DNA from: Apostichopus japonicus
Lineage: Eukaryota; Echinodermata; Holothuroidea; Aspidochirotida; Stichopodidae
Direction: 5' to 3'
Assembly: GCF_037975245.1 (NCBI RefSeq)
Contig: NC_092575.1
Coordinates: 7,723,001 to 7,787,000 of the forward strand
DNA length: 64,000 nt
A program made the translations under genes and the position numbers. Positions 4,301 through 42,300 of this stretch are shown here, in pieces. Under the pieces are notes generated by a model. That model did not search any database. It worked only from the letters and a program-made list of their open reading frames with translations, and was not told where the DNA came from. Within the stretch, counting starts at the first letter, position 1; every line of letters begins with the position of its first letter.

Positions 4301-7300
4301 TATATCTATACATTTAAACTATAACTTACAGCTTTGTCTGTCCAACGGTAAGTAAGCGCAACTAGCCTATCTATGACGCAAGAAAAGTATCAATGCGCTT
4401 TGGTATAACACTTTCATGCACGAATGTATGTAGACACACATGTGTACCGTGCGTTTATATCTATACATTTAAACTATAACTTACAGCTTTGTCTGTCCAA
4501 CGGTAAGTAAGCGCAACTAGCCTATCTATGACGCAAGCAAAGTATCAATGCGCTTTGGTATAACGCTTTCAAGCACGAATGTCCTATTTATACACACATG
4601 TGTACCGTGCGTTTATATCTATACATTTAAACTATACCACACAGCTTTAACTGTCCAACGGTAAGTAAGCGCAACTAGCCTATCTATGACGCAAGAAAAG
4701 TATCAATGCGCTTTGGTATAACGCTTTCATGCACGAATGTCCTATGTATACACACATGTGTACCGTGCGTTTATATCTATACATTTAAACTATAACTTAC
4801 AGCTTTGTCTGTCCAACGGTAAGTAAGCGCAACTAGCCTATCTATGACGCAAGCAAAGTATCAATGCGCTTTGGTATAACGCTTTCAAGCACGAATGTCC
4901 TATTTATACACTGTGTACCGTGCGTTTATATCTATACATTTAAACTATACCACACAGCTTTAACTGTCCAACGGTAAGTAAGCGCAACTAGCCTATCTAT
5001 GACGCAAGCAAAGTATCAATGCGCTTTGGTATAACGCTTTAATGCACGAATGTCCTATGTATACACACATGTGTACATTGCGTTTATATCCATACATCTA
5101 AACTATACCACACAGCTTTGTCTGTCCAACGTTAAGTAAGCGCAACTAGCCTATATATGATGCAAGCAAAGTATCAATGCGCTTTGGTATAACGCTTTCA
5201 TGCACGAATGTATGTATACACACATGTGTACCGTGCGTTTATATCTATACATTTAAACTATAACTTACAGCTTTGTCTGTCCAACGGTAAGTAAGCGCAA
5301 CTAGCCTATCTATGACGCAAGCAAAGTATCAATGCCCTTTGGTATAGCGCTTTCATGCACGAATGTCCTATGTATACTCTGTGTACCGTGCCTTTCTATC
5401 TATACATTTAAACTATACCACACAGCTTTGTCTGTCCAACGGTAAGTAAGCGCAACTAGCCTATCTATGACGCAGGCAAAGTATCAATGCGCTTTGGTAT
5501 AACGCTTTCATGCACGAATGTCCTATGTATACACACATGTGTAACGTGCGTTTATATCTATACAATTAAACTTTACCATACTGCTTTGTCTGTCCAACGT
5601 TAAGTAAGCGCAACTAGCCTATCTATGACGCAAGAAAAGTATCAATGCGCTTTGGTATAACACTTTCACGCACGAATGTATGTAGACACACATGTGTACC
5701 GTGCGTTTATATCTATACATTTAAACTATAACTTACAGCTTTGTCTGTCCAACGGTAAGTAAGCGCAACTAGCCTATCTATGACGCAAGCAAAGTATCAA
5801 TGCGCTTTGGTATAACGCTTTCAAGCACGAATGTCCTATTTATACACACATGTGTACATTGCGTTTATATCTATACATTTAAACTATACCACACAGCTTT
5901 AACTGTCCAACGGTAAGTAAGCGCAACTAGCCTATATATGACGCAAGAAAAGTATCAATGCGCTTTGGTATAACGCTTTCATGCACGAATGTCCTATGTA
6001 TACACACATGTGTACCGTGCGTTTATATCTATACATTTAAACTATAACTTACAGCTTTGTCTGTCCAACGGTAAGTAAGCGCAACTAGCCTATCTATGAC
6101 GCAAGCAAAGTATCAATGCGCTTTGGTATAACGCTTTCAAGCACGAATGTCCTATTTATACACACATGTGTACCGTGCGTTTATATCTATACATTTAAAC
6201 TATACCACACAGCTTTAACTGTCCAACGGTAAGTAAGCGCAACTAGCCTATCTATGACGCAAGAAAAGTATCAATGCGCTTTGGTATAACGCTTTAATGC
6301 ACGAATGTCCTATGTATACACACATGTGTACCGTGCGTTTAAATCTATACATTTAAACTATAACTTACAGCTTTGTCTGTCCAACGGTAAGTAAGCGCAA
6401 CTAGCCTAACTATGACGCAAGCAAAGTATCAATGCGCTTTTGGTATAACGCTTTCAAGCACGAATGTCCTATGTATACACTGTGTACCGTGCGTTTATAT
6501 CTATACATTTAAACTATACCACACAGCTTTTTCTGTCCAACGGTAAGTAAGCGCAACTAGCCTATCTATGACGCAAGCAAAGTATCAATGCGCTTTGGTA
6601 TAACGCTTTCATGCACGAATGTCCTATGTATACACTGTGTACCGTGCGTTTATATCTATACATTTAAACTATACCACACAGCTTTGTCTGTCCAACAGTA
6701 AGTAAGCGCAACTAGCCTATCTATGACGCAAGCAAAGTATCAATGCGCTTTGATATAACGCTTTCATGCACGAATGTCCTATTTATACACTGTGTACCGT
6801 GCGTTTATATCTATACATTTAAACTATACCACACAGCTTTAACTGTCCAACGGTAAGTAAGCGCAACTAGCCTATCTATGACGCAAGCAAAGTATCAATG
6901 CGCTTTGGTATAACGCTTTACTGCACGAATGTCCTATGTATACACACATGTGTACCGTGCGTTCATATCTATACATTTAAACTATACAACACAGCTTTGT
7001 CTGTCCAACGTTAAGTAAGCGCAGCTAGCCTATCTATGACGCAAGCAAAGTATCAATGCGCTTTGGTATAACGCTTTACTGCACGAATGTCCTATGTATA
7101 CACACATGTGTACCGTGCGTTTATATCTATACATTTAAACTATAACTTACAGCTTTGTCTGTCCAACGGTGAGTAAGCGCAACTAGCCTATCTATGACGC
7201 AAGCAAAGTATCAATGCCCTTTGGTATAACGCTTTCATGCACGAATGTCCTATGTATACTCTGTGCACCGTGCCTTTCTATCTATACATTTAAACTATAC

Positions 7301-10300
7301 CACACAGCTTTGTCTGTCCAACGGTAAGTAAGCGCAACTATAGCCTATCTATGACGCAAGCAAAGTGTCAATGTGCTTTGGTATAACGCTTTCATGCACG
7401 AATGTCCTATGTATACACACATGTGTAACGTGCGTTTATATCTATACAATTTAACTATAACTTACAGCTTTGTCTGTCCAACGGTGAGTAAGCGCAACTA
7501 GCCTATCTATGACGCAAGCAAAGTATCAATGCCCTTTGGTATAACGCTTTCATGCACGAATGTCCTATGTATACTCTGTGTACCGTGCCTTTCTATCTAT
7601 ACATTTAAAGTATACCACACTGCTTTGTCTGTCCAACGGTAAATAAGCGCAACTAGCCTATCGATGACTCAACCAGAGTATGTATGCGCTTTGGTATAAC
7701 GCTTTCATGCACGAATGTATGTATACACTGTGTACCGTGCGTTTATATCTATACATTTAAACTATAACTTACAGCTTTGTCTGTCCAACGGTAAGTAAGC
7801 GCAACTAGCCTATCTATGACATAAGAAAAGTATCAATGCGCTTTGGTATAACACTTTCATGCACGAATGTATGTAGAGACACATGTGTACCGTGCGTTTA
7901 TATCTATACATTTAAACTATAACTTACAGCTTTGTCTGTCCAACGGTAAGTAAGCGCAACTAGCCTATCTATGACGCAAGCAAAGTATCAATGCGCTTTG
8001 GTATAACGCTTTCAAGCACGAATGTCCTATTTATACACTGTGTACCGTGCGTTTATATCTATACATTTAAACTATACCACACAGCTTTAACTGTCCAACG
8101 GTAAGTAAGCGCAACTAGCCTATCTATGACGCAAGCAAAGTATCAATGCGCTTTGGTATAACGCTTTCAAGCACGAATGTCCTATTTATACACTGTGTAC
8201 CGTGCGTTTATATCTATACATTTAAACTATACCACACAGCTTTAACTGTCCAACGGTAAGTAAGCGCAACTAGCCTATCTATGACGCAAGCAAAGTATCA
8301 ATGCGCTTTGGTATAACGCTTTCAAGCACGAATGTCCTATTTATACACACATGTGTACCGTGCGTTTAAATCTATACATTTAAACTATACCACACAGCTT
8401 TGTCTGTCCAACGTTAAGTAAGCGCAACTAGCCTATCTATGATGCAAGCAAAGTATCAATGCTCTTTGGTATAACGCTTTCATGCACGAATGTATGTATA
8501 CACACATGTGTACCGTGCGTTTATATCTATACATTTAAACTATAACTTACAGCTTTGTCTGTCCAACGGTAAGTAAGCGCAACTAGCCTATCTATGACGC
8601 AAGCAAAGTATCAATGCCCTTTGGTATAGCGCTTTCATGCACGAATATCCTATGTATACTCTGTGTACCGTGCCTTTCTATCTATACATTTAAACTATAC
8701 CACACAAGTTTGTCTGTCCAACGGTAAGTAAGCGCAACTAGCCTATCTATGACGCAAGCAAAGTATCAATGCGCTTTGGTATAACGCTTTCATGCACGAA
8801 TGTCCTATGTATACACACATGTGTACCGTGCGTTTATATCTATACAATTAAACTATACCACACTGCTTTGTCTGTCCAACGGTAAGTAAGCGCAACTAGC
8901 CTATCGATGACTCAACCATAGTATGTATGCGCTTTGGTATAACGCTTTCATGCACGAATGTATGTATACACTGTGTACCGTGCGTTTATATCTATACATT
9001 TAAACTATAACTTACAGCTTTGTCTGTCCAACGGTAAGTAAGCGCAACTAGCCTATCTATGACGCAAGAAAAGTATCAATGCGCTTTGGTATAACACTTT
9101 CATGCACGAATGTATGTAGACACACATGTGTACCGTGCGTTTATATCTATACATTTAAACTATAACTTACAGCTTTGTCTGTCCAACGGTAAGTAAGCGC
9201 AACTAGCCTATCTATGACGCAAGCAAAGTATCAATGCGCTTTGGTATAACGCTTTCAAGCACGAATGTCCTATTTATACACACATGTGTACCGTGCGTTT
9301 ATATCTATACATTTAAACTATACCACACAGCTTTAACTGTCCAACGGTAAGTAAGCGCAACTAGCCTATCTATGACGCAAGAAAAGTATCAATGCGCTTT
9401 GGTATAACGCTTTCATGCACGAATGTCCTATGTATACACACATGTGTACCGTGCGTTTATATCTATACATTTAAACTATAACTTACAGCTTTGTCTGTCC
9501 AACGGTAAGTAAGCGCAACTAGCCTATCTATGACGCAAGCAAAGTATCAATGCGCTTTGGTATAACGCTTTCAAGCACGAATGTCCTATTTATACACTGT
9601 GTACCGTGCGTTTATATCTATACATTTAAACTATACCACACAGCTTTAACTGTCCAACGGTAAGTAAGCGCAACTAGCCTATCTATGACGCAAGCAAAGT
9701 ATCAATGCGCTTTGGTATAACGCTTTAATGCACGAATGTCCTATGTATACACACATGTGTACATTGCGTTTATATCCATACATCTAAACTATACCACACA
9801 GCTTTGTCTGTCCAACGTTAAGTAAGCGCAACTAGCCTATATATGATGCAAGCAAAGTATCAATGCGCTTTGGTATAACGCTTTCATGCACGAATGTATG
9901 TATACACACATGTGTACCGTGCGTTTATATCTATACATTTAAACTATAACTTACAGCTTTGTCTGTCCAACGGTAAGTAAGCGCAACTAGCCTATCTATG
10001 ACGCAAGCAAAGTATCAATGCCCTTTGGTATAGCGCTTTCATGCACGAATGTCCTATGTATACTCTGTGTACCGTGCCTTTCTATCTATACATTTAAACT
10101 ATACCACACAGCTTTGTCTGTCCAACGGTAAGTAAGCGCAACTAGCCTATCTATGACGCAGGCAAAGTATCAATGCGCTTTGGTATAACGCTTTCATGCA
10201 CGAATGTCCTATGTATACACACATGTGTAACGTGCGTTTATATCTATACAATTAAACTTTACCATACTGCTTTGTCTGTCCAACGTTAAGTAAGCGCAAC

Positions 10301-37501: not shown

Positions 37502-37865
37502 GCTTTTAAAGGCATCCGTAGATTCCCTTTTAGGAGAATAGCGCATCATCAGGCCACGTATTCAGTGGACGGTGGCTGCAAGCATGCCGGTCGCAGAGAG
37601 TGTCCCCACCTCTGGCCAAAGGCAAGGATTCACGCACGCCGCCTAGTACGCTTCTGGTCGATTTGACCGACCCTCTGCGCATCCTCCCGGGTTCTTTTGC
37701 GACAACAAGGGAGACATGGCACGGGATCCTAGGCCACAAAAAGCACCATGCCACAGCCAGAGGTATTATCGCCTCAGGCCTGTCTTGAACCCTAGCCACG
37801 ATTTACACGACCGACGAGGAATGAGTCTTTCGTCACCCTCTTAACAGCATCGGCCACCACATCAG
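37502..37865. other. GC-rich island of unknown origin
   Basis: This roughly 360-bp stretch is clearly richer in G and C than the AT-rich surroundings and has short open frames on both strands (37530-37799 minus, 37600-37788 plus), as GC-rich sequence tends to. Neither product is recognised. The composition shift suggests an inserted fragment or old coding sequence; a retroelement piece is possible but unproven. Confidence 0.5.
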
Positions 37866-37952
37866 CTAGTAAATTATATGGTTGAATTAATACATAAAGA
37901 CTTCAGTGTCGACTACTGAAAGAGAAAAAGAAATTTTAAACGTGTATAACCA

Positions 37953-38022
37953 ACCATTGATGGAGTCGAACTCAGTTTTATCAGGTTACCAGTCCACTGC
38001 TCTACCCTCTGAGCCATTTGAC
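37953..38022 (-). pseudogene. tRNA-like sequence (tRNA pseudogene or SINE head)
   Basis: On the minus strand the sequence has an A-box-like TGGCTCAGAGGGTAGAGC and a B-box-like GAGTTCGACTCC at tRNA-like spacing. The middle could form an anticodon loop CTGGTAA (GGT, threonine type), but the anticodon and acceptor stems do not pair well, so a functional tRNA is unlikely. A tRNA-derived SINE head is the main alternative. No SINE body or tail was recognised beside it. Confidence 0.55.
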
Positions 38023-38520
38023 AAGTTAACTTTTAACGAGCTTTAATTGGTATTATTGGTTGGATACAATCTATTGGTAACAGTGCATGACACTGCCTTC
38101 AACGAAATCTCTATCCATCCTGTTTTACTCTCATAAGAACAACGGATCTGAATATCTTTATTAACAAGAAGCTCACGCTTGTCTTTGTTTACATTGCAGC
38201 AAGCAGTAAGAATATCGTTTCCTTCCAAGACGTAAATATAAAATAGGCTTATGCCCCGATACTATCGATGACTTCGAAGCAAGCAGTAAAAGAAAAACGG
38301 ATTCCGTGAAATCTTCTTATTCACAAAAGGTTGCTTAAAGTGGCCATGACACGAAAATTTCAAAGTCCTATATTTTTGGGATCCATCAAAGAATGTTCTC
38401 TAGAACATGTATCAACCAATCTGCCAGTTTAAAACTTGATTTTTCAAGTCGAAAATTGAGAATGAATTTACCCTTTTCGGCGTTTGAAACTTTGTTTACT
38501 CAAAAATTTTCCGATTCGCA

Positions 38521-38538
38521 TGACGTCATGTGACGTCA
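38521..38538. promoter_or_regulatory. Two CRE-like palindromes upstream of the P2X7-like fragment
   Basis: TGACGTCA occurs at 38521-38528 and again at 38531-38538, about 145 bp before the first ATG of the plus-strand fragment. This is the full palindromic site bound by CREB/ATF proteins in animals. A single TGACGTCA also lies at 41358-41365, upstream of the opposed THAP fragment. A promoter role is inferred. Confidence 0.5.
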
Positions 38539-38681
38539 CGTTTTGAACACATTTGTTTTCACTGCTACGATCCTCCGAACATACCATTCACGTACACAGT
38601 AGACAAGTACACATACCACTAGTAGTTACTAAACAAAACACCGATCACAAGTGAGATATCAAATCAAAATTTCCTGTGAAA

Positions 38682-39640
38682 TGGCGGATCCAGAACCAAT
38701 TGCGGCAACCGAAGTTCAAAGTGATAATGGTTCTTCACTAGGCAGTGAAATTGGGCTATAATTTGAGTGCCCTTTCTCATATTCGAAGCAGAGAGTGAAG
38801 GCGATGATTATTCCAATATTGAACCGAACGTTGAGGGTGGAGCGGAGGTGTTAGAACCGTATCAGTTCGAGCCTGTTAAACGAGCCGAAATTGAAGCTCC
38901 ACACATATCGAAGAAGAAATCCGTTCGAAACCATTGCAAGGAACATACAACGTGGTAAGAATTTATTAACGAAGCATTTAAAAACAAAATCCAGTCCATT
39001 TTGTGCATGTGTTGTTGGAATTCGCGGAACACCCTAAACCGTATTGTGCGTTGTGTTACGGTAACTTACAACCCATATGTAGAGTGTGTAGTACTAGTAG
39101 GGTTGGTTGCATACTGAAAGTTTGGCTCGGGGATGTAAGTTGCATTATGCAGCCATGCTAGGTAGGCATATGTGTTATTCCATACTCATTATTACTTGGC
39201 TAGTACTTTGGCCTGGAGTTTTGCAAATCAATTTTCTGAAACAAAAGAATGTTTCATGATACGTGATGTGTAAAATCACAACAAATGTAACCATAACTGT
39301 ACATTGTATGCCTGCTTGTTATTGTGGACATCATGGCCAACATTAATACATTTTGAACTTTCATAAATTTTTTCCCAGGCAGTACAGATACATAGCCTAC
39401 GGTCAACAGGTTCAATGATACTTGGGGTTCCTAGCAAGACACGTCAGGGTTGTGCTACCATCATGTGCAGTCCAAAGGATCAGAAGTGATTTTCCAGCCA
39501 ATGGTCATTACACTGGATTCAAGTTGCCAGGAGAAAACTCATTGTATAGGAAGCCTTGGTTGAGAAATTCCTCCAGAAACACCTTTTCTAAACTACGATT
39601 GTGTTGGATTATCAATCCGTCAGGGTTCCCTCAGTGTTGA
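38682..39640 (+). pseudogene. Broken gene resembling the P2X7 C-terminal (ballast) domain family
   Basis: An ATG at 38682 opens a short acidic N-terminus that stops at the TAA at 38760; the adjacent frame continues with acidic residues and EPYQFEPV near 38850-38880, a motif I associate with invertebrate P2X7-like domain proteins. A donor-like GGTAAGAAT follows near 38950 and an acceptor TTTCCCAG ends at 39378. The next exon reads YIAYGQQVQ, a stop (TGA at 39416, probably from Trp), then YLGFLARHVRVVLPSCAV, QRIRSDFP and HYTGFK, close to the family's usual ending. The zinc-binding cysteine cluster expected between these parts is not visible, so that exon is lost or decayed. The family is recognised from memory of its motifs; the ion-channel part of P2X7 is absent. 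It is non-functional as it stands. Confidence 0.6.
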
Positions 39641-40944
39641 TATATTGAAATTCAAGACTTTTAATTCAGGATGAAAAGGTTATTTTCCAGACCCAACATC
39701 AACAATGAAAGAAAAGGCATGTTTTGAAGCATTTGGACACAAGTATTGGCGTGACCGTGATGTCATATAATATGTGCATAAGGGAACGGGCATTGACCTT
39801 TTTAAGGGGCATTTACCTCCCAGACGTTTGATTCGTACCTTTAATCTGGAAGCCAAAATATCCATATCACCAATGATATTTGACAGAAAAGTCATAATAA
39901 AGACCAATGGAGGCAGCAGAACTCTTGAATGTTTAGACTTTGTTTCTTCAGCAGCAGTTGGTTTGTTTTGTAGTCTTTCTTCAAAAACTCAGCAGTACAC
40001 CCTGTTAATGGTCTTCGATTGTTTTAATGCGTGTGATGCTGTGTTTCACATTGCCCATCAGTGTTGTATGTGTCGTCGTGCTTGTGTAACATTTTTGCAT
40101 GTGAGTTACTTCGTGCAGTGTTTCTTGGTTTAAATATCCCTTTATTGTATTTGCTTCTGGATTATTCTAATTAATTTGTCACAACAACGATTGATAGCGA
40201 TGGACATGCAACTGCTTTGTAGGCTTAAAGCCAAAAAATTCATGTAAGTTGTTTTCTTTTAACCTCCTTTGATGTCACAAATTACATTAGTGTAATTTAA
40301 GAATGATAATGTTTATGGAAAGTACAGTTTTACTTTTTTGTCATATAATACAATGATTGTTGTTAATGTTAGTTCAGATTGTCCAGAATGACTGTCTAGA
40401 ACTGATATTGAATAAATTTTGTTCAATGATTTAACACTTGAACTATGTTGTGTGAATTTTTGGCTCTGTGACTTTAAAATAAATCGCTTTGAGATTTAAT
40501 TAAACACCCTTTGGAATAAAATCTTTTTACCTACCTAGTATTTTGACCCATCCCCATTACCCCCACTCCCTCCACAACATTAAAAATGGTTTTCCTGGAA
40601 TAGGAATAAGAAATTATTGCTATAACTAACTGATCCAGCATATTCCAGAAATAAATTGGGGCACTGAGATTTGTTCACAAGAAGATGTAACCCATCGCTT
40701 CTGAAGCTAACCTCATAGCTTATTAGTATACAACAGAGCAATGAAGGGGGTGTTAATTTAGATGATACAGTAAAATCTCTTCGTCTATTGCGACTTCACT
40801 GTAGTAACGCTAATACTACAGTACTACTAGTTCTCGGCGCGCTACCTCCTAAGGATCGCCACTTTCCCCATTGGAGGTTTCCTGTTCCCCGATCTGGTCT
40901 TCAGAGTAGTTTTTTGTGGATTACTTGACAGAAGAATGACTCTT

Positions 40945-41190
40945 TTATGTCGAAACGTTAAAGTCCATTTGTTTTATTTCATAACAAAAAGGAGGGATCG
41001 CAGTATGCTTCCGTGAAGTGTTCGCTTCATTCGGAGCTGCATACTGGCTAGGCCCAGTGAAATCGGCGCTGGTGTTGTGCACTAACTTGGTCATAATCGC
41101 CGTGTTTTTTTCGTCCTTCAGCCATGGATGAAGGCTAATTGCATGGGTAATGATATTTATGCAGCCCCCAACAACACAACGGACCGGCAT
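40945..41190 (-). pseudogene. Broken THAP zinc-finger domain (transposase N-terminus)
   Basis: The minus-strand product begins MPVRCVVGGCINI, followed by ISLHPWLKDE and SADFTGPSQYA, matching the start of THAP domains (Met-Pro, Cys-x4-Cys, then a Phe/Trp-Pro-like segment and an Asp-Phe near the helix). The second half of the C2CH zinc site, a Cys-Ser-x-His-Phe pattern, is found just downstream but in another frame and after an in-frame TGA (SEHFTEAYCDPS). One frameshift and one stop therefore break it. THAP domains bind DNA at the ends of P and Kolobok elements. Its place near the right end, reading inward, fits the N-terminus of a lost transposase. Confidence 0.75.
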
Positions 41191-41727
41191 TTCTCTCGGA
41201 TAGTTTACAACAGTTGTAAAAATAACTTGAAATTTCTAACGATATAGCGTAATACAGTGGTTGTTCTCTCCGTGTAAATGTGCGTGTACTGTATATGGAA
41301 CGGTATGATCGTCGCGCATCCGATACATGCCTGGGCTTTGCACGTGTGTTCCTAACATGACGTCATCATTGTCTTGTTGTGAAATCGCATTCTCAGATAT
41401 CTATTTTCGGATGCGAATATTAAAACGTTAATTACTAATTAGTCCTTGAGGTTTTCAAGGTGTTGAGGATAGTTTTGAACATAGATTTTCTCATAGATTC
41501 AGAGGAAGTTACTCTCGATGAGTTGGATTTTTCGTGTCATGGTCTCTTTAAGATTGTGCTCGCAAGAGAGGTCTTGTTGTAAGTTGTGTCCTTTTGCAAT
41601 TATATTCTATGCAGACAATCTTGAACTGGAATAAGCCTGAAATTTCAACAAACAATACCTATTCACATTTCAGTACCGTTTTTAATGAGGAAAGGACAAT
41701 TCTTTTTAAGTCAAACACGTTAACTGA

Positions 41728-41855
41728 AAAGTAAGCGCAACTATAGCCTGTCTCTGACGCAAGCAAAGTATCTATGCACTTTTGTAAAACTTTTTCATGT
41801 ACAGATGTATGTATACATTGAGTACCGTGTATTGATATCTATACATCTATACATC
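41728..41855 (+). repeat. Orphan diverged satellite monomer
   Basis: AAGTAAGCGCAACTATAGCC, then GACGCAAGCAAAGTATCTAT, ATGTATGTATACATTG and TATCTATACAT follow the monomer order, though with many substitutions. It stands alone 6 kb beyond the array edge and 180 bp beyond the Kolobok-like element. It shares TATCTATGC-type changes with the decayed edge monomers. Confidence 0.88.
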
Positions 41856-41929
41856 GACGAGCTGGAAAGATACACAGATACTCTTGCTACTGTGGCAGCT
41901 ATTTCGCATAACTGATCAATTCCTTCATT

Positions 41930-42300
41930 AACGAAGGAAAACTAGCATACCATGAATAAAGATTTTCGTACCTTTCTACCAACGAATGGAACTAACTGCC
42001 ACTTAATGTTAGAAAGTCTGTATACTATGTGTTATAAACGTCATAATGAAACTGCATCTTACATGTAATTCATATTTTTAAATTACAATCTCAAATTCAT
42101 GTTATCATTTACTAATATTTCTTTAATCTGTTTGTTATTCTTATTTCTCGTAATTGTTTTGTAATTGTATTTCTTTTTAATACCTTTTTGTTCTTGGTTT
42201 CTTTAGAGAGCGTCAAGGGAGATTAGCACTTTGCTCAACGAGTTTTTATTGTTGTTATAATTATGATAATAGAAATAATAAAATTAATAACAGTAATGAA
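41930..42300 (+). pseudogene. LINE 3'-end remnant
   Basis: Mixed frames around 41955-42010 give FRTFLPTNGTN and YLSTNEWN, like the end of LINE ORF2 proteins where a Trp-Asn precedes Leu-Pro. An AT-rich tail follows, ending in TTTTTATTGTTGTTATAAT and an imperfect A/T microsatellite. It is severely truncated at the 5' side and too short to place in a clade. Confidence 0.5.

Follow-up and report, generated by a model that had tools for sequence, protein, structure and literature searches.

The window analyzed here is a 64,000-nt stretch of the Apostichopus japonicus genome (contig NC_092575.1, positions 7,723,001 to 7,787,000 of the forward strand), and it contains a 3.2-kb element at positions 38339-41547. 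The element is flanked by a TTAA target-site copy on the left (38335-38338) and on the right (41548-41551), the target-site duplication typical of Kolobok transposons. Because the TTAAs sit at these positions, the boundaries proposed in an earlier sequence-only reading proved exact, and the matched inverted ends that it had described were recovered as an inverted-repeat pair (38334-38363 and 41523-41552; 30 nt, 87% complementary). The inverted ends of the element itself measure approximately 19 bp. The left terminal inverted repeat (38339-38363, + strand) starts with 5′-AG and the right one (41523-41547, − strand) ends with CT-3′, consistent with the 5′-RR...YY-3′ rule given for Kolobok termini by Kojima and Bao 2022 (PMC9587614; here and below, published work is cited from the portions of the texts available to us).

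The end pattern TTAAAGWGGCCATGACACGAAAA, TTAA included, occurred exactly 352 times in the 671.6-Mb genome (179 forward and 173 reverse occurrences), and the reversed pattern, used as a control, occurred 0 times. A search with the whole element returned 42 matches from the 40 scored of 525 candidates. Counting the window, at least 35 copies are present end to end or nearly so, the other 34 being 97-99% identical to the window copy, and TTAA was seen at both ends in the window and in four more copies (L014, L039, L040, and L043). The family is therefore young and has been recently active.

The left part of the element carries the remnant of a gene that reads inward. The fragment, which had been said to end like P2X7 ballast-domain proteins, matches the Pfam profile P2RX7_C (PF20478) at positions 39377-39523 (+) with 30.3 bits, above the cut-off of 23.5 bits. 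This match covers model positions 143-192, i.e., the C-terminal 50 residues of the ballast domain, contains one in-frame TGA, and represents the last exon of a gene that we refer to as KolX (see below); the frame continues to its stop at 39524-39640. The open piece at 39419-39640 alone scored 27 bits (E = 5e-6). The second protein with a P2X7 ballast fold that marks the Kol0 lineage of Kolobok is, hence, recognizable in the window. As only model positions 143-192 are spanned, the cysteine-rich part of the domain is missing and the window copy does not have the seven conserved Zn-binding cysteines of the P2X7 ballast; CxC..CC stretches are visible in KolX of two other loci (L001 and L017). Two pieces further upstream probably derive from the first KolX exon, judged from their resemblance, assessed by eye, to L017 and L020. 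One of them (38681-38761, +) begins with an ATG, which is followed by a stop, and resembles the start in L020. The other (38767-38958, +), an open reading frame in a different frame, has a splice-donor-like end and a stretch, EPYQFEPVKR, resembling RPYDFEPVRR of the L017 KolX exon. This second piece had no Pfam match, and the L017 exon itself matched P2RX7_C weakly, under the cut-off (E = 2e-4). Between the remnants of both genes lies an open frame of 120 amino acids (39771-40133, +) that has similar counterparts in several family members and no Pfam match at E values up to 1.

The in-frame TGA is a property of the family. Among the 150 PF20478 matches that were scored from 471 candidates, 61, including the window, scored 28.9-32.5 bits with one TGA, and none of the 61 had a Kolobok-type DDE match within 10 kb. 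The stop occupies the identical codon in the three copies read (window, L014, and L040), and those copies therefore spread with the gene already broken. On these grounds, breakage of the ballast gene seems to have preceded the amplification of the family, whose copies seem to move in trans. We considered whether the deleted family conserves its ballast exon in particular and rejected this idea: in six of eight relatives, the exon (95-97% identity) was no better preserved than its flanks (71-99%). In the two most distant relatives, C9_30 and C14_15, the exon was 92.5% and 95.2% identical, respectively, versus 75-91% elsewhere in the well-aligned parts, which would fit an older coding phase. The open ballast frames of 14 relatives carry no weight as evidence, because these loci had been picked as matches listed without stops.

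At the opposite end of the element, a broken THAP domain had been reported to read inward from the right. No THAP match was obtained at E values up to 1 when six window open reading frames, two of them on the element stretch, were compared with Pfam. The domain was reached through an intermediate, L039 (C9:22148410-22150480 including the TTAAs, 2071 bases), which has the same ends as the window element and an intact exon matching Pfam THAP (E = 2.6e-13). Positions 40840-41190 (−) of the window are 45% identical to this exon (E = 5.9e-17) and contain three stops; since L039 shares the window's ends and its THAP exon matches this segment, the report was right. The THAP domain known from Kolobok transposase genes is, in this family, decayed in the window and intact in L039. 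Of the 145 THAP matches listed for the genome, 20 are located upstream of a DDE match on the same strand, at a distance of up to 7 kb, and one is downstream. For the remaining 124, no DDE match is listed that near, and most THAP matches here therefore derive from decayed copies or from some other source. Given the 20 places with a THAP upstream of a same-strand DDE, the THAP exon of the window would once have been part of a transposase gene.

No Kolobok DDE core was found in the window element (best match, E = 0.82). A DDE transposase with the C/DxxH motif is present in other ballast-bearing loci, and because none was found in the window copy, we class it as a non-autonomous derivative and not as a complete Kolobok. 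In 20 stretches that contain related copies, seven DDE queries gave no tblastn match at E values up to 0.01; these stretches comprise 12 loci (L014, L015, L019, L022, L023, L025, L026, and L039-L043) and 8 loci, from a set of 16, that were extended downstream. Among the loci read, with the first 100 of the 352 end positions listed, no element combined the window's ends with a DDE core. The tie to an autonomous parent is consequently homology of parts. The terminal inverted repeats of intact KolX-DDE loci were not located by a search for short TTAA-flanked repeats around them. Intact members with both genes, named earlier as the support to look for, thus exist in related Kolobok subfamilies and were not found among copies with the window's ends.

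Those related subfamilies revealed how the two genes are arranged. Subtraction of the 61 TGA matches from the 150 scored ones left 89 ballast matches, which were compared with DDE matches from two queries (95 and 61, respectively) and with the 145 THAP matches. A Kolobok-type DDE lay within 10 kb of 41 of the 89, and all 41 pairs converge, with 0 divergent and 0 on the same strand, although the matches are non-independent and include duplicates such as C5/C9 and two on C23. When DDE coordinates were shifted in 1000 trials, the mean was 0.29 pairs and the maximum 3. Wherever the ballast and DDE genes are found together, they face each other; these data support the view that they constitute a fixed convergent two-gene pair across divergent subfamilies. 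The ballast domain can be long in such loci, with PF20478 matches in L001, L003, and L007 reaching E values of 1.6e-35 to 4.7e-33. Two of the 41 pairs (L010 and L012) showed ballast, DDE, and THAP in the expected order, the THAP being on the DDE strand and within 12 kb upstream, so that two loci besides the window family give direct evidence of THAP and ballast within a single element. For the other 39 pairs, no THAP match was listed at the DDE gene. The last ballast exon begins near model position 142-143 in L010, L012 (144 for L012), and the window, and no THAP is listed for the pairs in which the ballast domain is undivided. Judged from these few loci, there may be two subgroups in this genome, the THAP-bearing one of which would include the window element.

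Opposite the ballast genes of other loci, intact DDE frames of approximately 550 amino acids were found. The frames of L001, L007, and L044 matched the Pfam family Mutator (PF20700); the L003 frame had no Pfam match at an E value of 0.01, and the two L012 frames gave nothing or sub-cut-off matches only. The L001 DDE had no convincing match among solved structures (best E = 0.99) and was 34-100% identical to other DDEs in the genome. Residues D191, D258, D281xxH284, and E409 are invariant in three aligned DDE copies, and we take them to be the catalytic positions of the Kolobok DDE. A C/DxxH motif is described for this transposase in the available text of PMC9587614. Two loci on different contigs, L044 and L045, are 99.8% identical across the full 10 kb compared, as expected from a transposition that occurred very recently or from a duplication; each has an open 550-amino-acid DDE frame and a ballast gene. 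A cysteine-rich frame without a Pfam match at E values up to 1 lies upstream of KolX in L044 (8776-9024, −) and could be a KolX N-terminal exon.

As observed, the element is flanked by TTAA, has AG...CT ends, retains remnants of both genes, each at the end and in the orientation expected, and belongs to a family with many copies and low divergence. We are therefore highly confident that it is a copy of a young non-autonomous DNA transposon of the Kolobok superfamily, from the KolX-bearing Kol0 lineage. The proposal that one TTAA transposon carries a THAP domain and a P2X7-like gene in opposed orientation is borne out, as both remnants were matched and at least 35 nearly full copies exist. The most fitting interpretation of the window copy is that it descends by internal deletion from a two-gene Kolobok whose ballast protein is KolX. 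Such a deletion would have taken the DDE core out of the THAP transposase gene, along with the middle of the KolX gene, and left both ends, the adjoining parts of each gene, and the last KolX exon. The copy could have kept its mobility through a transposase encoded elsewhere that would cut it out and paste it into TTAA, and KolX might, as a guess, serve as a DNA- or protein-binding accessory in transposition.

Comparison with described systems agrees with this assignment. Kol0 elements of the Kolobok-1_XT type have in common with the window element TTAA, AG...CT ends, and a second gene with the ballast fold and, with the relatives of the window element, a DxxH DDE (PMC9587614), whereas neither the DDE core nor the cysteine-rich middle of the ballast is found in the window copy, whose two remnants are both broken. 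The Kolobok of Xenopus likewise has a THAP domain in its transposase, TTAA, and AG ends (PMC6004289). T2-MITE and other non-autonomous Xenopus Kolobok families share the non-autonomous state, TTAA, the terminal AG, and a high copy number with the window family (PMC6004289), which, in contrast, is 3.2 kb long and retains parts of both genes. KolobokP belongs to the same superfamily and is recorded in three echinoderm classes (PMC9587614); the window element differs from it in that direct repeats within positions 37800-42100 do not exceed 22 nt, and long terminal direct repeats are therefore lacking. With respect to P2X7 and nanor, the KolX of L001 aligns to residues 454-591 of a P2X7 chain (E = 1.5e-23), and the open exon of L021, which is related to that of the window, aligns to residues 543-599 (E = 1e-4). 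Unlike in P2X7, no channel domain was found with the ballast here.

Three other origins were weighed against the Kolobok reading. A piggyBac transposon that had captured a ballast exon would also have TTAA as its target, and a C terminus resembling KolX is described for a few piggyBac families (PMC9587614). However, the AG...CT ends of the window element follow the 5′-RR...YY-3′ rule of Kolobok (PMC9587614), full-length Xenopus Kolobok also ends with AG (PMC6004289), and a THAP exon lies at the right end of the element, so that we regard a piggyBac origin as very improbable.

We consider it just as improbable that the ballast sequence is not an ancestral transposon gene but a nanor-like host gene that a THAP transposon picked up as a passenger. 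This explanation would draw on the 48 of the 89 ballast matches that have no DDE within 10 kb. Of these, however, 14 lie in DNA resembling the window element and one, C18:105650, is a full copy of it, which accounts for the lack of DDE at these 14 + 1 places. The best-scoring 41 ballast matches comprise 31 paired with a DDE and 10 unpaired, and tblastn around 5 of these 10 uncovered DDE pieces, also converging, near three more (L002, L050, and, weakly at E = 4e-4, L047); no DDE pieces were found locally in L048 and L049. The convergent orientation of 41 of 41 pairs, against the mean of 0.29 for shifted coordinates, and the constancy of this architecture across subfamilies as divergent as 34-100% identity to the L001 DDE led us to reject host-gene capture. 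Chance nesting of two unrelated transposon fragments that together resemble one element would fit the broken state of both window genes, but it is the least probable of all and was rejected, because at least 34 other copies have nearly the whole 3.2 kb in common and the element therefore moves as one unit.

The window element is, then, an ordinary non-autonomous Kolobok derivative, and the central claim is already published. Kojima and Bao 2022 (PMC9587614) ascribe a P2X7 cytoplasmic ballast fold to KolX of the Kol0 lineage, trace P2X7 to a fusion with a KolX gene, and suggest nanor as a domesticated KolX. The idea put forward from the sequence alone, that some stand-alone ballast relatives travel as cargo or as a second protein of TTAA transposons, is hence correct and in line with the 41 of 41 convergent pairs, but not new. 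Stand-alone ballast proteins across animals, sea urchin included, had been documented by Rump et al. 2020 (PMC7016195), and the main text of that paper, as available to us, does not contain the word stem "transpos". The data from A. japonicus support the published view that the ballast domain of P2X7 is a transposon gene, which would explain stand-alone ballast genes of invertebrates and offer a concrete route for the spread of the domain. What is new here is the A. japonicus genome, with its echinoderm-type mitochondrial code, and the uniform convergent KolX-DDE layout; we met no description of this layout or of the window family in the available portions of the KolX, Kolobok, and ballast papers cited here, in which neither was specifically searched for. 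The code was read from the mitochondrial cox1 (contig C35, 16,099 bp) aligned to a chain of solved structure: AAA falls on Asn at 9 of 9 positions, ATA on Ile at 11 of 22 (on Met at 3), AGA on Ser at 4 of 5, and TGA on Trp at 11 of 11, which is the echinoderm/flatworm code. Matches are numbered up to C23, suggesting approximately 23 chromosomes, as a sea cucumber may have.

The P2X receptor of this genome lies apart from the ballast genes. All five matches of the receptor exon search fall at C15:15099425-15190968, and within 1 Mb of these exons there is no match from the scored ballast set (150 of 471 candidates). Two open ballast frames, C15:2159299 (161 amino acids, L048) and C19:11523823 (213 amino acids, L049), have no DDE pieces in the downstream 3.5 and 3.0 kb, respectively. 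It is conceivable, though we think it unlikely, that these two are host-domesticated KolX genes, which would represent a capture in an invertebrate that took place independently of those behind P2X7 and nanor.

A convergent pair of another kind was observed in L013 (C5:19868000-19877999), where a YqaJ gene (5690-7390, +; E = 3e-14) faces a THAP and DDE_Tnp_4 transposase gene (7479-9179, −; E = 2.8e-41), a layout like that of ISL2EU elements.
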